From a virus, in the IMG/VR virus record IMGVR_UViG_3300037847_006271, positions 1 to 40,666 of that record: DNA of 40,666 bases; one strand, written 5' to 3'. Positions 5,601-18,415 of this stretch are shown here, piece by piece (the first letter of the stretch is position 1; every line of letters starts with the position of its first letter). The notes below the pieces were generated by a model. The model made no database searches. It was not told the DNA's origin and worked only from the letters and a program-made list of their open reading frames with translations. Made by a program: the position numbers and the translations under genes.

Positions 5601-5685
5601 TTTTTCCATTCCTTTTTTGATGGTTGAAAGAGCACGTTTTAAACGCACCAGGCCACAATATAAAATTTTTAACATAGGCGCAAAT
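5601..5685 (-). promoter_or_regulatory. Promoter and TTCAACCATC leader of the DUF932-like gene
   Basis: A sigma70-like pair on the minus strand: TTGCGC (5683-5678), 17 bp, TATTGT (5660-5655). The leader carries the shared motif TTCAACCATCAAAAAAGGA (5628-5610), in which the Shine-Dalgarno AAGGA directly follows the CAACCATC element. A small palindrome around GTTTTAAACG lies between. Confidence 0.55.
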
Positions 5686-6494: not shown

Positions 6495-6560
6495 CGTTTT
6501 ATTCCTCAATGGTTGAATATCGAAAAACTAATATAGCAGATAAAAAAACCGGCTCAAGGC
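6495..6560 (-). promoter_or_regulatory. Promoter and TTCAACCAT leader of the cysteine-rich gene
   Basis: Minus-strand TTGAGC (6557-6552), 16 bp, TATATT (6535-6530), with the shared CTATAT core. The -35 lies in the loop of the preceding terminator. The leader reads TTCAACCATTGAGGAATAA (6517-6499), so motif and Shine-Dalgarno are fused. Confidence 0.6.
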
Positions 6561-7753: not shown

Positions 7754-7815
7754 TGAGTCCTCCTTTTGGATGGTTGAGGTTCCATATATAAAAACTTACA
7801 TAGGCGCAATCAAGT
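7754..7815 (-). promoter_or_regulatory. Promoter and CTCAACCATC leader of the 7753-6675 unit
   Basis: Minus-strand TTGATT (7813-7808), 17 bp, TATATA (7790-7785). A start about 7 nt below the -10 would fall on 7778, the first base of CTCAACCATC (7778-7769). The leader then runs straight into AAAAGGAGGA. It overlaps the end of the nuclease gene. Confidence 0.65.
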
Positions 7816-9872: not shown

Positions 9873-9979
9873 GTTTTCCTCCATGACGGTTGAGTTAACG
9901 ATATCAAATAGCGGGTGCGGTTAAGCTCGCACTCTTTTATTGTTCTATATAGTATATCATACTATTAACATAAAGTAAA
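9873..9979 (-). promoter_or_regulatory. Promoter and CTCAACCGTC leader of gene 9872
   Basis: Minus-strand TTACTT (9978-9973), 16 bp, TATACT (9956-9951), directly followed by TATATAGAACA. The leader is long (about 70 nt), has a hairpin GTGCG...CGCAC near 9915-9933, and ends with ACTCAACCGTCATGGAGGA (9895-9877), the shared motif fused to the Shine-Dalgarno. Confidence 0.55.
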
Positions 9980-9997: not shown

Positions 9998-10228
9998 CTA
10001 ATTACAGGCGAACGGTTGACCGAGGTGCACGAAGATCGGCGTTTGGTCCCCGAGCCACGCTCCGGTGACATTGAAGTCCATGTATTCGACGGCTTCTTCG
10101 GGCTCCATACCGTCGCGTTCAATTAGGATTTTAACGCACTTGTCGAAGTCGTAGGCGACGACGGGGTTCCCCGGTCCGCGGTCTGCGATACCCAGGATTG
10201 CATCATCGAATCCATCAGCTGTTAACAT
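9998..10228 (-). CDS. Conserved small phage protein of unknown function
   Basis: 76 aa, ATG at 10228 with AGAGG about 7 nt upstream. The pattern DGFDDAILGIADR, then YDFDKCVKILIERDGM and EEAVEYMDFNVTGAWLG, is one I recognise from many phages as a short protein of unknown function. Single-gene unit with its own promoter and terminator, divergent from the plus-strand unit at 10309. Confidence 0.78.
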   Translation of the reverse strand: MLTADGFDDAILGIADRGPGNPVVAYDFDKCVKILIERDGMEPEEAVEYMDFNVTGAWLGDQTPIFVHLGQPFACN

Positions 10229-12474: not shown

Positions 12475-12701
12475 TGCACGTCTTTTTATTGATGGTGTAT
12501 TTAGGAGTCGGGGATGACCGGAAACTGGTCAGCGGCGACATGTATTTCAAATCAATCGTGCGCTGTAACTACTTTGCGAAAGAGCTTTCTAAGCGTTACG
12601 GGAACTTTGGCGGGGCCCGAGGACTCAATAAGAAAGATCGGGCTACGGCGTACTGCGTTCCAAAATTTATAAAGATTGGATCGGTCGAGGTCTACGACTG
12701 A
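12471..12701 (+). CDS. Small protein with signal-like N-terminus
   Basis: 76 aa from ATG 12471 (overlapping the previous stop as ATGATG). The first 14 residues (MMHVFLLMVYLGVG) are hydrophobic and could be a signal or anchor; the rest contains two cysteines and a basic segment (RGLNKKDRATAYC). Probably acts with the membrane protein encoded just upstream. Its end overlaps the convergent RHH gene by 10 nt. Confidence 0.65.
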   Translation: MMHVFLLMVYLGVGDDRKLVSGDMYFKSIVRCNYFAKELSKRYGNFGGARGLNKKDRATAYCVPKFIKIGSVEVYD

Positions 12702-12880
12702 GGGGCGGCTTCTTCCTTGTCATCGTCGTGTTTTAGCTCAATGCCTTCCATTTCCAGATACCTGTGAAACATGTGCCGTAGTTGCCCGGAAATCTTTCGT
12801 TGTTCCAAAGCAGCAACAGCTTTGATGCCTTTGTAGACATCAACGGGCACTAAAATCGATCTCCATTTCTTTTGGTTCAT
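12692..12880 (-). CDS. Ribbon-helix-helix type DNA-binding protein
   Basis: 62 aa, ATG 12880 with AAGGCGAG upstream. The segment RSILVPVDVYKGIKAVAALE followed by KISGQLRHMFHRYLE fits the strand-helix-helix pattern of Arc/CopG repressors, which dimerise and read operators with the N-terminal strand; the tail is acidic. Likely a phage regulator. Its leader has a GGGTCCG/CGGACCC hairpin and its promoter overlaps the terminator of the predicted small RNA. Confidence 0.7.
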   Translation of the reverse strand: MNQKKWRSILVPVDVYKGIKAVAALEQRKISGQLRHMFHRYLEMEGIELKHDDDKEEAAPQS

Positions 12881-12978
12881 GGTTCTCGCCTTAAATTTGG
12901 TGGGTCCGCGGTCGGTGCGGGTTGAACCACGGACCCTTGAGACACAAGATATAGTAATCTATGGAACTTATCAACAAA
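12881..12978 (-). promoter_or_regulatory. Promoter and hairpin leader of the RHH gene
   Basis: Minus-strand TTGTTG (12977-12972), 18 bp, TATATC (12953-12948) in TACTATATCTTGTGTC, almost the same sequence as before the terS unit. The leader holds an inverted repeat GGGTCCG...CGGACCC (12902-12936) with TTCAACC in the loop. Confidence 0.5.
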
Positions 12979-13054
12979 AAAGAGGGGTGTCGTAACATAT
13001 ACAACACCCCTCAAGACTCAACCATCAATCTCCGGGAGGAATAATCGGAGTGAT
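12976..13054 (-). ncRNA. Predicted small regulatory RNA, about 79 nt
   Basis: On the minus strand a near-consensus promoter (TTGCCA 13089-13084, 17 bp, TATATT 13066-13061) would start RNA near 13054. An intrinsic terminator follows: GAGGGGTGT/ACACCCCTC, 9 bp (13012-12982), then TTTTTT. Between them the RNA forms CTCCG-loop-CGGAG (13050-13030) with the loop ATTATTCCTCC, which is anti-Shine-Dalgarno in sequence. A single-stranded linker GATTGATGGTTGAGTC follows. Linker and loop are complementary to the two parts of the leaders at 5600, 6494, 7753, 9872 and others. No reading frame with a ribosome site lies inside. Alternative: the plus strand here is a relic of the same leader, followed only by tiny frames. 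Confidence 0.6.
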
Positions 13055-13060
13055 GCGGTG

Positions 13061-13089
13061 AATATAGTGATGTTTATATACGTTGGCAA
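13061..13089 (-). promoter_or_regulatory. Sigma70-like promoter of the predicted small RNA
   Basis: TTGCCA, 17 bp, TATATT on the minus strand, with the CTATAT core shared by other promoters here. It is insulated from the polymerase operon by the terminator at 13126-13101. Confidence 0.65.
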
Positions 13090-13100
13090 GCTGAAAACGT

Positions 13101-13126
13101 AAAAAAGGCCCCGCCGAAGCGGGGCC
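13101..13126 (-). terminator. Intrinsic terminator of the replication operon
   Basis: GGCCCCGC, loop TTCG, GCGGGGCC, then TTTTTT on the minus strand: a perfect 8-bp stem with a stable tetraloop, about 50 bp after the polymerase stop. Confidence 0.93.
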
Positions 13127-13176
13127 AGTTCTCTTAGGGAGGAAAACACGCCAATGAGACAGTGCATTTAAAAATT

Positions 13177-15069
13177 TTACATGGAATCGCCCCAGCTGTC
13201 ACCCATTTCAATATCGGTCTTCATCGGGACCTCCAGCTCAATAGATTTCTCCATGATTTCTGCAATTTTTTCTGCTTCTTCCTTGGTTTTTACGCTGAAG
13301 GCCAGTTCATCATGTATCTGAAGCAGCGGAAGGAAGCCTGCGTCGGCCAGGTCCACCATAGCCTGTTTCGTCATATCGGCCGCAGAAGCCTGTATGAGGC
13401 GATTGAGCGCCTTGTAGGTCATCGCCCGCTGTAACTTGGTGGTCGGCCCGTAGTGTGCCCGTGCCTCGTCCAACGGCATGGCCTTATGCATACCGAAACC
13501 CTCGGGCTCGTACAGATTGAAACGGCACCGTCGGCCGCGAAGCGAGAAGATTTGTCCGCGAGCCGCGGGATCATTCAAACGCATCTGCACACCTTTAGTT
13601 AGCTTTTTAACAAAAGGCACGCGGTCATGGTACTTGTCGGTCAGTTCCTTGGCTTCTTCATCAGAGATATCTAGCTGTGCAGCAAGCTTTGCGCGTCCCA
13701 TGCCATACATCATAGCCAGGTTAATGACCTTAGCCTGCTTTCTCGGTATGTCGGCCATCTCGGCCACCATGCTATGGAAGTCCATGTCTGGATTATCGCG
13801 GTAACCGTCTACAAACTCGCTGACTCCAGGCATGCTTATGTTCTTGGCGCGTCGGAACACTTCAGCGTAATGAACCAGGATTCGAGGCTCCTGCTGCGAA
13901 TAGTCGATACTGGCCCACTTCTCGCCTTCTTCTGGCACAAAGACGCTCCTGATCATCGGTCCGAGTTCCGGGTGCCGTGCAGGAAGCTGCTGCATGTTTG
14001 GGTTGTTCATCGAGATTCTACCGGACACGGTGCCGCCATCGTCAGAGCGGATCTGGTTGATGTGACCGTGTATCCGCCCGTCGGGTGCCACATAGCGCAG
14101 AATGGAGTCTATGAACGTGCCGTTGATCTTGTTGTACTCACGCGCCTGCACAATCAATTGCGGCAGCGGGTGCTCATGTTCTGCGAGAAACGCCTTAGTG
14201 AAGCTTGGAGCACCTCTTTCGGTCTTTGGAAACGCAATGCTTTGTTTTTCAAACGCGCGAGCAAGAGAGTTGCCGGCCCATATCTCAATGTCCTCGCCAA
14301 CCATGTCGCGAATCTGCTTATTGATATCTTTTTCCTTCTTGAGGATGTGCTGCTTGATCCGCTCAACGCGGTCCAAGTCCACACGGACGCCGCGCAACGT
14401 CATGCCTACCAAGATCGGTAGCAGCTTCATTTCTAGGTCAAAGATGGTTTTCAGGTTCTCACCAGGAATTCTAGCGGCAAAATACTGCCATAGCTCCAAT
14501 GCGAGCTCTGCATCGGTCGTGGCATATGGCCCGACATGCATGGCTGGCAGCTTCCACATCTCGCCTTTTGGATCAACGCCAAAGCTTTTGGCGGCTTCTA
14601 CCAGCGCCTTCTCAGACTTGGTTTTGCCGAGTAGGTCGTAGCAAAGCGCGTTCAAAGAGTAACTGAAACGGTTCTCATCAAACAAGGACGCCACAACCAT
14701 CGTGTCGATGACGCGCCCGTTGATTGTAAAGCCTTCGGCTTTCAGCCAGCCAATATCATATTGCGCGTTGTGCATGATTTTGTCGGCAGGCGTGGCAAGC
14801 ACCTTCTGCATCCACTTGCGGACGATGCGATCATCTAAGTTGCCGCCGCCCCAATGTTTGACTGGTACATATCCACTCCACCATTCGGTAGCTACAGCAT
14901 ACCCTACAATTTCCCCATCTTGACGTGCCCAGCCAGGGCCCATCGTTTTTATTTTTGGGTCGCGTGTTTCAACGTCCACTGCGATCTGCTTAGCTTCAGA
15001 AAGATCAGGGAGCTCCGTCGGGGGTGTCCACTCGCTCGTCGGTGTGAACATTGCCATCTGTAGTTCCAT
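13177..15069 (-). CDS. Family A DNA polymerase with 3'-5' exonuclease
   Basis: 630 aa; replicates the phage genome. Exonuclease motifs: VDVET (D32, E34), HNAQYD (100-105), Y182/D186. Polymerase motif A SIDYSQQEPR with D389; motif B R443..K447...L451..Y455-G456; motif C QIHDEL with H586, D587, E588. The residue matching E. coli Pol I Phe762 is Leu451, and the next, normally Gly, is Ala. No 5'-nuclease domain, as in T7. Start at 15069 has GGAG 7 nt upstream; it overlaps the previous small gene by 65 nt. Last gene of the operon before the terminator. Confidence 0.95.
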   Translation of the reverse strand: MELQMAMFTPTSEWTPPTELPDLSEAKQIAVDVETRDPKIKTMGPGWARQDGEIVGYAVATEWWSGYVPVKHWGGGNLDDRIVRKWMQKVLATPADKIMHNAQYDIGWLKAEGFTINGRVIDTMVVASLFDENRFSYSLNALCYDLLGKTKSEKALVEAAKSFGVDPKGEMWKLPAMHVGPYATTDAELALELWQYFAARIPGENLKTIFDLEMKLLPILVGMTLRGVRVDLDRVERIKQHILKKEKDINKQIRDMVGEDIEIWAGNSLARAFEKQSIAFPKTERGAPSFTKAFLAEHEHPLPQLIVQAREYNKINGTFIDSILRYVAPDGRIHGHINQIRSDDGGTVSGRISMNNPNMQQLPARHPELGPMIRSVFVPEEGEKWASIDYSQQEPRILVHYAEVFRRAKNISMPGVSEFVDGYRDNPDMDFHSMVAEMADIPRKQAKVINLAMMYGMGRAKLAAQLDISDEEAKELTDKYHDRVPFVKKLTKGVQMRLNDPAARGQIFSLRGRRCRFNLYEPEGFGMHKAMPLDEARAHYGPTTKLQRAMTYKALNRLIQASAADMTKQAMVDLADAGFLPLLQIHDELAFSVKTKEEAEKIAEIMEKSIELEVPMKTDIEMGDSWGDSM

Positions 15070-16815: not shown

Positions 16816-18353
16816 TAGAACGGTATATCCTCCTCGTTTACTGCGAAGTCTGGAGTCCTGACATCTGCCCCAGATGCTTCAAGAGCGGGTATCTTCCACA
16901 CGCGCACGGTTCTTTCTTTGATGCGCAGGGTAGTGGGCTCGCCATTGATGTCCCGCAGGCGTTGCGCGATTTTGTGCGTCTTGAAGTCAAAGAACCGATT
17001 ACGCTTGAGGTAATTTTCAAAGTCGCGCAGACGAAAGAAGGTCTGGCTGGTGTCTTCATCGGTCCACGGACGGCGAAGCAGGATTTCTTCTTTGTCCTGC
17101 GCGGTCTGCATGTTGCGGCAGAAGTCCTCCAGATAATCGTAAAACGCGCCTTCAAGAGAAGCGTCTTGGCTTGTTTCGATGACGCCACCTTCCGTCTCGG
17201 TCATGTCACGCAGTAGCGCGTTGATGCGAGACTCCCATATCGGTTTTGAAGATGTGGGCGGCATGAAGTTGAGCTGTTCAACGCATGCCTTCTGGAAAGC
17301 GGCCTGGTTGAGCAAAGCGTCAGTGTCCAACTCCAAGGGCTCACCATTTACGTCCATGAACCAGACCGGCGGTGTCGATGCATACTTGCGAAGATTTGCT
17401 ACAGCAGCATTGTTGCCAGCGGAACCCACACCAAACTTACGAGTCAGGCACAGCTCTTTGTTGCAGTAGTCGTTTATCGGCGCATCGTTGCACTTGTAAA
17501 CGTAGTCTTTGCGGTTGAGCTGCTTGACGATGATGTTGACCTCTGCCAGAGGCAGCGGCGGATTCATGTATTGGTGGTTGTACTTTGCCACCTCATCTTC
17601 CCAAGTGTCTGGGTGACTCTTGCGCAGATAGACGCCAACGTTGAACAGACCGTTGTTGCGAGTCCCCTCTGGGAATCCTTGGGTGCACAATAACTGCAAG
17701 CAAGGCGGGCCATCGGGCACAGGGAGATTGTCTTCCTTCTGCACTTGTAAGGCCAGAATTTGCTCTGGTGTTTGGACGTAAGCTTTGTGCAGCTCAAAGA
17801 ATTCTTCGAGCGTAGCAGCGGAGCCGTCATCTTTGAAAGCGTAGCGGAGGCCGTCTTCCGCATTGTAATACGGCATGTTCAGAAAGTTACCCACGTCACC
17901 GCGATCAAGCTGAAGCTTGATTTGCTTTGGGAAAATTTCAGAGCCGCTGTACCCCAGAGCTGAAGCTATGTGACGCAAAACCTCCTGCATATCTTTTGCA
18001 GGCATCCAATCATCCGCAAACAGAAACACATGGGCCCCGCCGCTTTTTGACCGGCAAACCACCAAAGGCAGCTTCTTCTTACGGATTTTATCGATAAGCT
18101 CTTTGTGATTAAAATTGTATTGATCGATGTCAACGCAGCCCCAAACACAGTTATTATCTGCGTTGATGGGTATGATGCCAACGGACGCACCTTTGCCAGA
18201 CAGATGCCCTTCCCAATGGGCCTCGGTCCGAGATTCGCGGACAATCTTTGCTTGCCCCGTTTGTTTTCCGTTCGCTTTGGTTGAGTTGATTTCGTATGTG
18301 CCAAAGGCTTCTTCTAGGCCACGGAAGATCGTGGCAAATGTTTTTGCAGACAT
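16815..18353 (-). CDS. Archaeo-eukaryotic-type primase with PriCT-like domain
   Basis: 512 aa. The N-terminal half has AEP primase motifs: VDIDQY with D75 and D77, SKSGGAH with H108, and a later GNFLNMPYY (155-163). The sequence flavour is that of the TOTE-type AEP group. Residues 230-280 look like a PriCT helical domain. A cysteine group follows (C288, C297, C302). It makes primers for the polymerase encoded downstream. The extreme C-terminus is EEDIPF, resembling the SSB tail. Start 18353 has GGGAG 7 nt upstream. Confidence 0.85.
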   Translation of the reverse strand: MSAKTFATIFRGLEEAFGTYEINSTKANGKQTGQAKIVRESRTEAHWEGHLSGKGASVGIIPINADNNCVWGCVDIDQYNFNHKELIDKIRKKKLPLVVCRSKSGGAHVFLFADDWMPAKDMQEVLRHIASALGYSGSEIFPKQIKLQLDRGDVGNFLNMPYYNAEDGLRYAFKDDGSAATLEEFFELHKAYVQTPEQILALQVQKEDNLPVPDGPPCLQLLCTQGFPEGTRNNGLFNVGVYLRKSHPDTWEDEVAKYNHQYMNPPLPLAEVNIIVKQLNRKDYVYKCNDAPINDYCNKELCLTRKFGVGSAGNNAAVANLRKYASTPPVWFMDVNGEPLELDTDALLNQAAFQKACVEQLNFMPPTSSKPIWESRINALLRDMTETEGGVIETSQDASLEGAFYDYLEDFCRNMQTAQDKEEILLRRPWTDEDTSQTFFRLRDFENYLKRNRFFDFKTHKIAQRLRDINGEPTTLRIKERTVRVWKIPALEASGADVRTPDFAVNEEDIPF

Positions 18354-18415
18354 GCTTCACTCCCGGATGGTTAGGACGACGGCAGGACTGACCGTTAACC
18401 TGCCGCCGCCCTAGC
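18354..18415 (-). promoter_or_regulatory. Intra-operon hairpin and AACCATC leader before the primase gene
   Basis: On the minus strand GGCGGCAGG pairs with CCTGCCGTC (about 18376-18406), with no T tract. It is followed by CTAACCATCCGGGAG (18375-18361), a copy of the leader motif fused to the ribosome site. It may tune primase translation or mark an RNA processing point. Confidence 0.45.

Follow-up and report, generated by a model that had tools for sequence, protein, structure and literature searches.

A candidate free-standing small RNA near polA of a phage, complementary to leaders of several of its own genes

The window, by which we mean the whole 40,666-nt stretch of DNA analysed (IMG/VR record IMGVR_UViG_3300037847_006271), has on its minus strand a gap between polA and a small gene that resembles CopG/Arc-like (RHH-type) proteins by sequence only, is without a Pfam match, and is kept beside polA in relatives (Table 1). 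No ORF of at least 60 aa fills this gap on either strand, and no Rfam family was found at the gathering cut-off anywhere in the window. The minus strand from 13054 to 12976 looks like a free-standing RNA gene of ~79 nt, with the promoter-like TTGCCA-17-TATATT, the length and the T6 tract that a first-pass annotation of this DNA had described; the terminator which that annotation had given a 9-bp stem is present with a stem of 13 bp. The hairpin CTCCG/CGGAG that it had drawn with CCTCC in the loop was borne out by our fold prediction, in which the 11-nt loop (13045-13035, also written AUUAUUCCUCC) contains UUCCUCC and thus an anti-Shine-Dalgarno CCTCC, and in which the linker (RNA form GAUGGUUGAG) is open between the hairpin and the terminator. 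The predicted energy of the fold was -34.7 kcal/mol versus -17.5 kcal/mol for shuffles (z -5.7). Promoter-like sites are as frequent in the region as chance expects (13 found versus 12.3 expected), and taken by itself the promoter therefore says little for the sRNA.

Table 1. Positions of the predicted sRNA gene, its neighbours and its putative target sites in the window
Feature	Position	Strand	Remarks
Promoter-like TTGCCA-17-TATATT of the sRNA	13061..13089	-	TTGCCA starts at 13089, TATATT ends at 13061; 10/12 consensus matches
Candidate sRNA, ~79 nt	12976..13054	-	5' end inferred 6-7 nt past the -10 box
5' hairpin CTCCG/CGGAG, 11-nt loop ATTATTCCTCC	13030..13050	-	fold prediction
Single-stranded linker GATGGTTGAG	13017..13026	-	complementary to leader motif CTCAACCATC; fold and leader matching
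sRNA intrinsic terminator, 13-pair stem and T6	12976..13012	-	stem at 13012-12982
polA	13177-15069	-	upstream of the sRNA
polA terminator	13107..13126	-	separates polA from the sRNA gene; terminator prediction
Small gene, resembles CopG/Arc-like (RHH-type) protein	12692-12880	-	downstream neighbour of the sRNA
Target site, leader of gene 5600 (391 aa, phrog_1362 type)	5617..5628	-	TTCAACCATCAA, 5' of the ribosome-binding site; kept in relative L202
Target site, leader of gene 6494 (252 aa, DUF7227)	6499..6517	-	TTCAACCATTGAGGAATAA; L202 counterpart CCCGACCATCGAGGAG
Target site, leader of gene 7753 (57 aa)	7758..7778	-	CTCAACCATCCAAAAGGAGGA; identical in L202, before another gene
Target site, leader of gene 9872 (127 aa)	9878..9895	-	ACTCAACCGTCATGGAGG, one G-U; matching and cofolding
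Possible target site, primase leader	18360..18372	-	AACCATCCGGGAG; cofolding rank 3/48, z -3.0
Second candidate sRNA, polA 3' end	13101-13167	-	promoter-like GTGACA-17-TAAAAT and polA terminator bracket TTTTCCTCCCTAAG

The element complementary to the linker lies 5' of the Shine-Dalgarno (SD) sequence of genes 7753, 5600, 9872 and 6494. The two-part matches counted in the first-pass annotation are real: the leader of gene 7753 offers 10 nt to the linker and a second match of 6 nt, and that of gene 6494 offers 8 nt to the linker and 9 nt to the loop. To these we added the leader of gene 5600 (11 contiguous nt to the linker through TCAACCATCAA), that of gene 9872 (GGAGG and, through ACTCAACCGTC, an 11-nt match that includes one G-U) and perhaps that of the primase at 18353 (AACCATC and CGGGAG, 7 + 6 nt). 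All departures from the element in leaders 5600, 6494 and 9872 are C-to-T or A-to-G, so that pairing with the sRNA is kept through G-U. Two further early leaders, at 10228 (minus strand, AATCAACCCCAAGAGG) and 10309 (plus strand, CTCAACACTTCAAAAAGGAGGG), are motif-like and pair weakly with the sRNA.

Comparison with dinucleotide-shuffled sRNAs, the control proposed in the first-pass annotation, showed that as many leaders with contiguous matches as observed were reached in 19 of 5000 shuffles for 8-mers, 30 of 5000 for 9-mers and 12 of 5000 for 10-mers. When the sRNA was cofolded with 48 leaders, those of genes 9872 and 5600, the primase and gene 7753 ranked first to fourth, respectively, while leader 6494 came only 15th, a weak result explained by the division of its pairing between two parts. 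Simple duplex energies, computed for the sRNA against every gene start, gave no discrimination, and the linker 10-mer with two mismatches was not enriched genome-wide (43 found versus 35.5 expected); the signal of the linker motif is its placement in leaders, not its genome-wide frequency.

A close relative, L202, is an 11.5-kb fragment with a TerL 95% identical in amino acids and aligned DNA 76-83% identical in nucleotides (~80% identical to the window). It ends before the sRNA locus, so that the comparison concerns the leaders alone. L202 keeps the motif in three of them, as TCAACCATC for genes 5600 and 7753 and as CCCGACCATC for gene 6494, and its leader 7753 is identical through CCTCAACCATCCAAAAGGAGGA although the gene that follows differs. 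The window sRNA is a single sequence among the records compared: no such RNA was seen in the gap between polA and the RHH-type gene of the next relatives (polA at most 70%) or in polA relatives from bacterial genome contigs, an exact-match query of IMG/VR with the sRNA core returned nothing, and BLAST of phage records returned nothing useful. The pattern CCTCC..GATGGTTGA..T6 matched 76 stretches, of which the majority were chance hits or copies of a single prophage sequence; a leader-pattern search gave mostly unrelated contigs, and a tighter promoter-plus-leader pattern just L202 and unrelated contigs.

TerL groups this marine/aquatic phage with the Pelagibacter phages HTVC027P and HTVC023P, phage DSL-LC04 and 023Pt_psg01, and many IMG/VR contigs also belong to the group. 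Leader motifs found de novo differed from genome to genome. We listed non-coding terminator-ended RNAs independently of these motifs and then compared the two, and found that a terminator-ended RNA carries the reverse complement of the leader motif of its own genome (pairs CUCCCAAAGUG/CACUUUGGGAG, CUCCGUGU/ACACGGAG, CCUUGUGUG/CACACAAGG and others). The RNA of G004 carries CTCCCAAAG against CTTTGGGAG in seven leaders, and CTCCCAAAG is also that of G008; G005-G007 have CTCCAAAG against CTTTGGAG, G010 CTCCGTGT against ACACGGAG, G014 CTCCGTGGTT against AACCACGGAG and HTVC023P TTTGTTAGT against ACTAACAAA, while in G003 two RNAs face leaders with CACACAAGGAGTCA. An insertion or deletion in the sRNA (CCC or CC) is followed by GGG or GG in the leaders (9:1 versus 1:12 in long genome records, Fisher p 1e-4). 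sRNA and leaders covary across the phage group, which supports the core inference of the first-pass annotation.

A scan of every terminator outside ORFs gave 17 cases in the reverse-complement mode, while the sense mode gave 5, the reversed mode 4 and the complemented mode 8; with at least three leaders, before filtering, the count was 7 against 0 in the controls. Removal of low-GC matches and opposite-strand leaders left 13 reverse-complement cases complementary to at least two distant leaders, two of them from one phage (L229 is G003), versus 1, 0 and 0 in the three control modes; HTVC023P was lost from this set because its motif is AT-rich. The genomes share ancestry and these counts are not independent. 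The most robust test is a permutation across clades: with seven sRNA clades, the true matching of sRNAs to genomes came first among the 5040 possible ones at each K used (8, 9 and 10), 1/5040 being the floor of the test and the leader calling being crude.

The position of the RNA and part of the targets are also conserved. In 9 of 10 genomes the RNA is on the polA strand, 0.1-2.4 kb downstream of that gene, HTVC023P being the exception (4 kb from polA, opposite strand); the second RNA of G003 is farther from polA. Targets are mostly found between polA and terL. A 377-391 aa gene of the phrog_1362 type (gene 5600 of the window) is a predicted target in six genomes, the DUF7227-type gene 6494 is homologous to a G003 target, and gene 9872 is homologous to a G010 target (123-127 aa). 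The 21 distinct RNAs of the largest type in the group could be aligned and have a near-invariant anti-SD core, CTCCCAAAGTGA, in a stem loop, with compensatory changes in 9 of 17 predicted pairs and no Rfam family at cut-off. A covariance model built here from this type, R1, recovers the RNAs of G004-G008 at 71-86 bits. The window RNA is not recognised by R1 (3.9 bits at 13070-12976, filters off); it appears to be the same as the largest type in functional class and position, and R1 gives no support for common descent.

No convincing pair of RNA and leaders was found in G001, G002, G009, G015, G017, DSL-LC04 or HTVC027P; the G009 matches were rejected, their leaders being on the opposite strand. 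An RNA of L001/L002 with its own promoter and terminator was set aside for want of a convincing leader partner, and no leader partner was found for terminator-ended RNAs with a TATAAT-like box at ~7334 of L001 and ~9959 of L375. GC-rich hairpins of the GCGGCAATTCGCCGC type stand directly 5' of the CACTTTGGGAG motif in G004 (47933-52255) and G005-G008, in most target leaders. At G007 43710 (minus strand) and G006 11074 (plus strand), a 3'-end terminator is preceded by CTCCAAAG, a second anti-leader copy near the 377-aa gene.

The anatomy of the locus, its complementarity to the leaders, the covariation, the conserved position and the partly conserved target genes point to a free-standing phage sRNA that would act in trans, by antisense pairing, to repress several mRNAs of the phage itself, a reading to which we give a probability of about 0.78. 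The sRNA would be made early, from its own promoter; the linker would pair with the shared leader element (as RNA, CUCAACCAUC) just 5' of the ribosome-binding site, and the CCUCC of the loop with the SD sequence itself. Blocking of 30S binding would lower translation of genes 5600, 6494, 7753, 9872 and perhaps the primase, and early genes between polA and terL would be shut off once the replication genes are on; a chaperone such as Hfq may be needed. Because the polarity of the effect is not readable from the letters, pairing could instead activate or protect the mRNAs, or the leaders could soak up the RNA as a sponge. None of the tools gave a result in favour of activation, and the SD itself lies under the RNA in every clade, with the possible exception of HTVC023P, where the motif is beside it, which makes this alternative unlikely.

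The shared element might also be a DNA operator, for example of the RHH-type protein encoded beside the sRNA, the copy in the sRNA gene being another operator. Leaders 6494 and 7753 have a -10-like box directly 5' of the motif, and the adjoining gene has the resemblance and the constant place described above. In the relatives, however, the motif and the SD overlap, the spacing to the start codon hardly varies, and this also holds where a hairpin, not a promoter, stands in front; it is the antisense copy that is consistently found in a terminator-ended RNA, not sense, reversed or complemented copies, and deviations of the motif keep G-U pairs. We consider an operator improbable.

Similarly improbable, in our judgement, is an RNA of the cuckoo/CcsR or SorX/MmgR kind, aimed at host mRNAs through CCUCC and matching phage leaders as a by-product of leader repeats. 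The CCUCC loop would suit it, and a neighbouring candidate in the polA 3'-UTR resembles SorX/MmgR below cut-off, whereas the pairing of the window sRNA reaches past the SD into phage-specific leader sequence and covaries in seven clades. Cuckoo/CcsR RNAs have CCUCCUCCC in stem-loops. The comparison with them made in the first-pass annotation is an analogy only, since the window sRNA has no Rfam match (neither SorX, RF02784, nor MmgR, RF00519, at 13054-12976), one CCTCC instead of CCUCCUCCC loops, and a specific second pairing element. Of the two possibilities named in that annotation, own early mRNAs or host mRNAs, the covariation supports a phage-encoded trans-acting RNA whose main targets would be ribosome-binding sites of the phage itself. 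It is hardly credible that the locus is what remains of the leader of a decayed plus-strand gene, which would make the reverse complement trivial: A2-type loci do read CACTTTGGAGAAAACTATG and then a few codons on the opposite strand, and opposite-strand leaders did give the false positives of G009, but the filter against opposite-strand starts drops these and leaves 13 versus 1, and the RNA side has a promoter, a terminator, a conserved position and compensatory stems.

The antisense repressor proposed here is best explained as one member of a functional class found in many lineages of the phage group, and it falls in the class that we define as polA-linked anti-leader sRNA (terminator-ended, near polA, complementary to at least two distant leaders of its own genome). 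In each such lineage both the RNA, mostly encoded just past polA, and the leader motif would be peculiar to that lineage and would have changed together; cultured HTVC023P may have a version with a weaker, AT-rich motif. We somewhat favour a broader proposal, that this group of ~58-kb aquatic phages has a post-transcriptional regulon with one (sometimes two) sRNAs per phage that recognise a leader motif common to as many as seven or more mRNAs; from lineage to lineage RNA and motif would be exchanged as a pair, with the locus and some targets staying constant, and this lock and key may also separate related phages in co-infected cells. If so, gene timing in abundant aquatic phages, of a group related to Pelagibacter phages, would depend in part on RNA pairing, and one could read from the genomes directly what such RNAs target. 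The finding points to particular sites that compensate each other.

Most phage antisense RNAs known so far control a single gene, in temperate phages. We found no description of such a system in the open-access literature, and a virus-wide system that switches gene groups by RNA pairing appears to be previously undescribed. The nearest relatives in mechanism are c4 antisense RNA (P1/P7) and sar RNA (P22), presented in PMC12197685 as phage-encoded RNAs in which a loop-exposed sequence pairs with the ribosome-binding site of a phage mRNA, as predicted for the window RNA. They act on one mRNA (ant) in temperate phages, whereas the window RNA would be a free-standing gene reaching at least four mRNAs through a leader element that they share, and no match to an Rfam model at gathering places it in the P1/P7-like c4 family. 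VpdS of Vibrio phage VP882 is a phage sRNA that acts in trans, reportedly on mRNAs of both phage and host; it is Hfq-bound and from a temperate phage, and the passages on it in that source describe no shared-leader regulon, unlike the present class with its shared leader motif (PMC12197685). An anti-SD signature is part of a 10-mer that the Caulobacter RNAs SisA-D have in common (PMC12559287). An exposed anti-SD motif is common to the window sRNA and to cuckoo/CcsR, SorX, MmgR and SisA-D, but these are host-encoded with host targets, and the window sRNA adds a separate leader-specific pairing element.

The neighbouring candidate RNA at the polA 3' end, absent from the first-pass annotation, has TTTTCCTCCC before its terminator and scored (13160-13101) 28.1 bits for SorX (RF02784; cut-off 46.6) and 23.5 bits for MmgR (RF00519; cut-off 41). 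A CCTCCC at the matching place is conserved in L001, L011 and L384. The candidate's GTTTTCCTCC is reverse-complementary to GGAGGAAAAC of leader 9872. The Rfam Mu-gpT-DE RNA (RF03012) was found above cut-off in two relatives, at L401:3536-3588 and L378:3888-3941.
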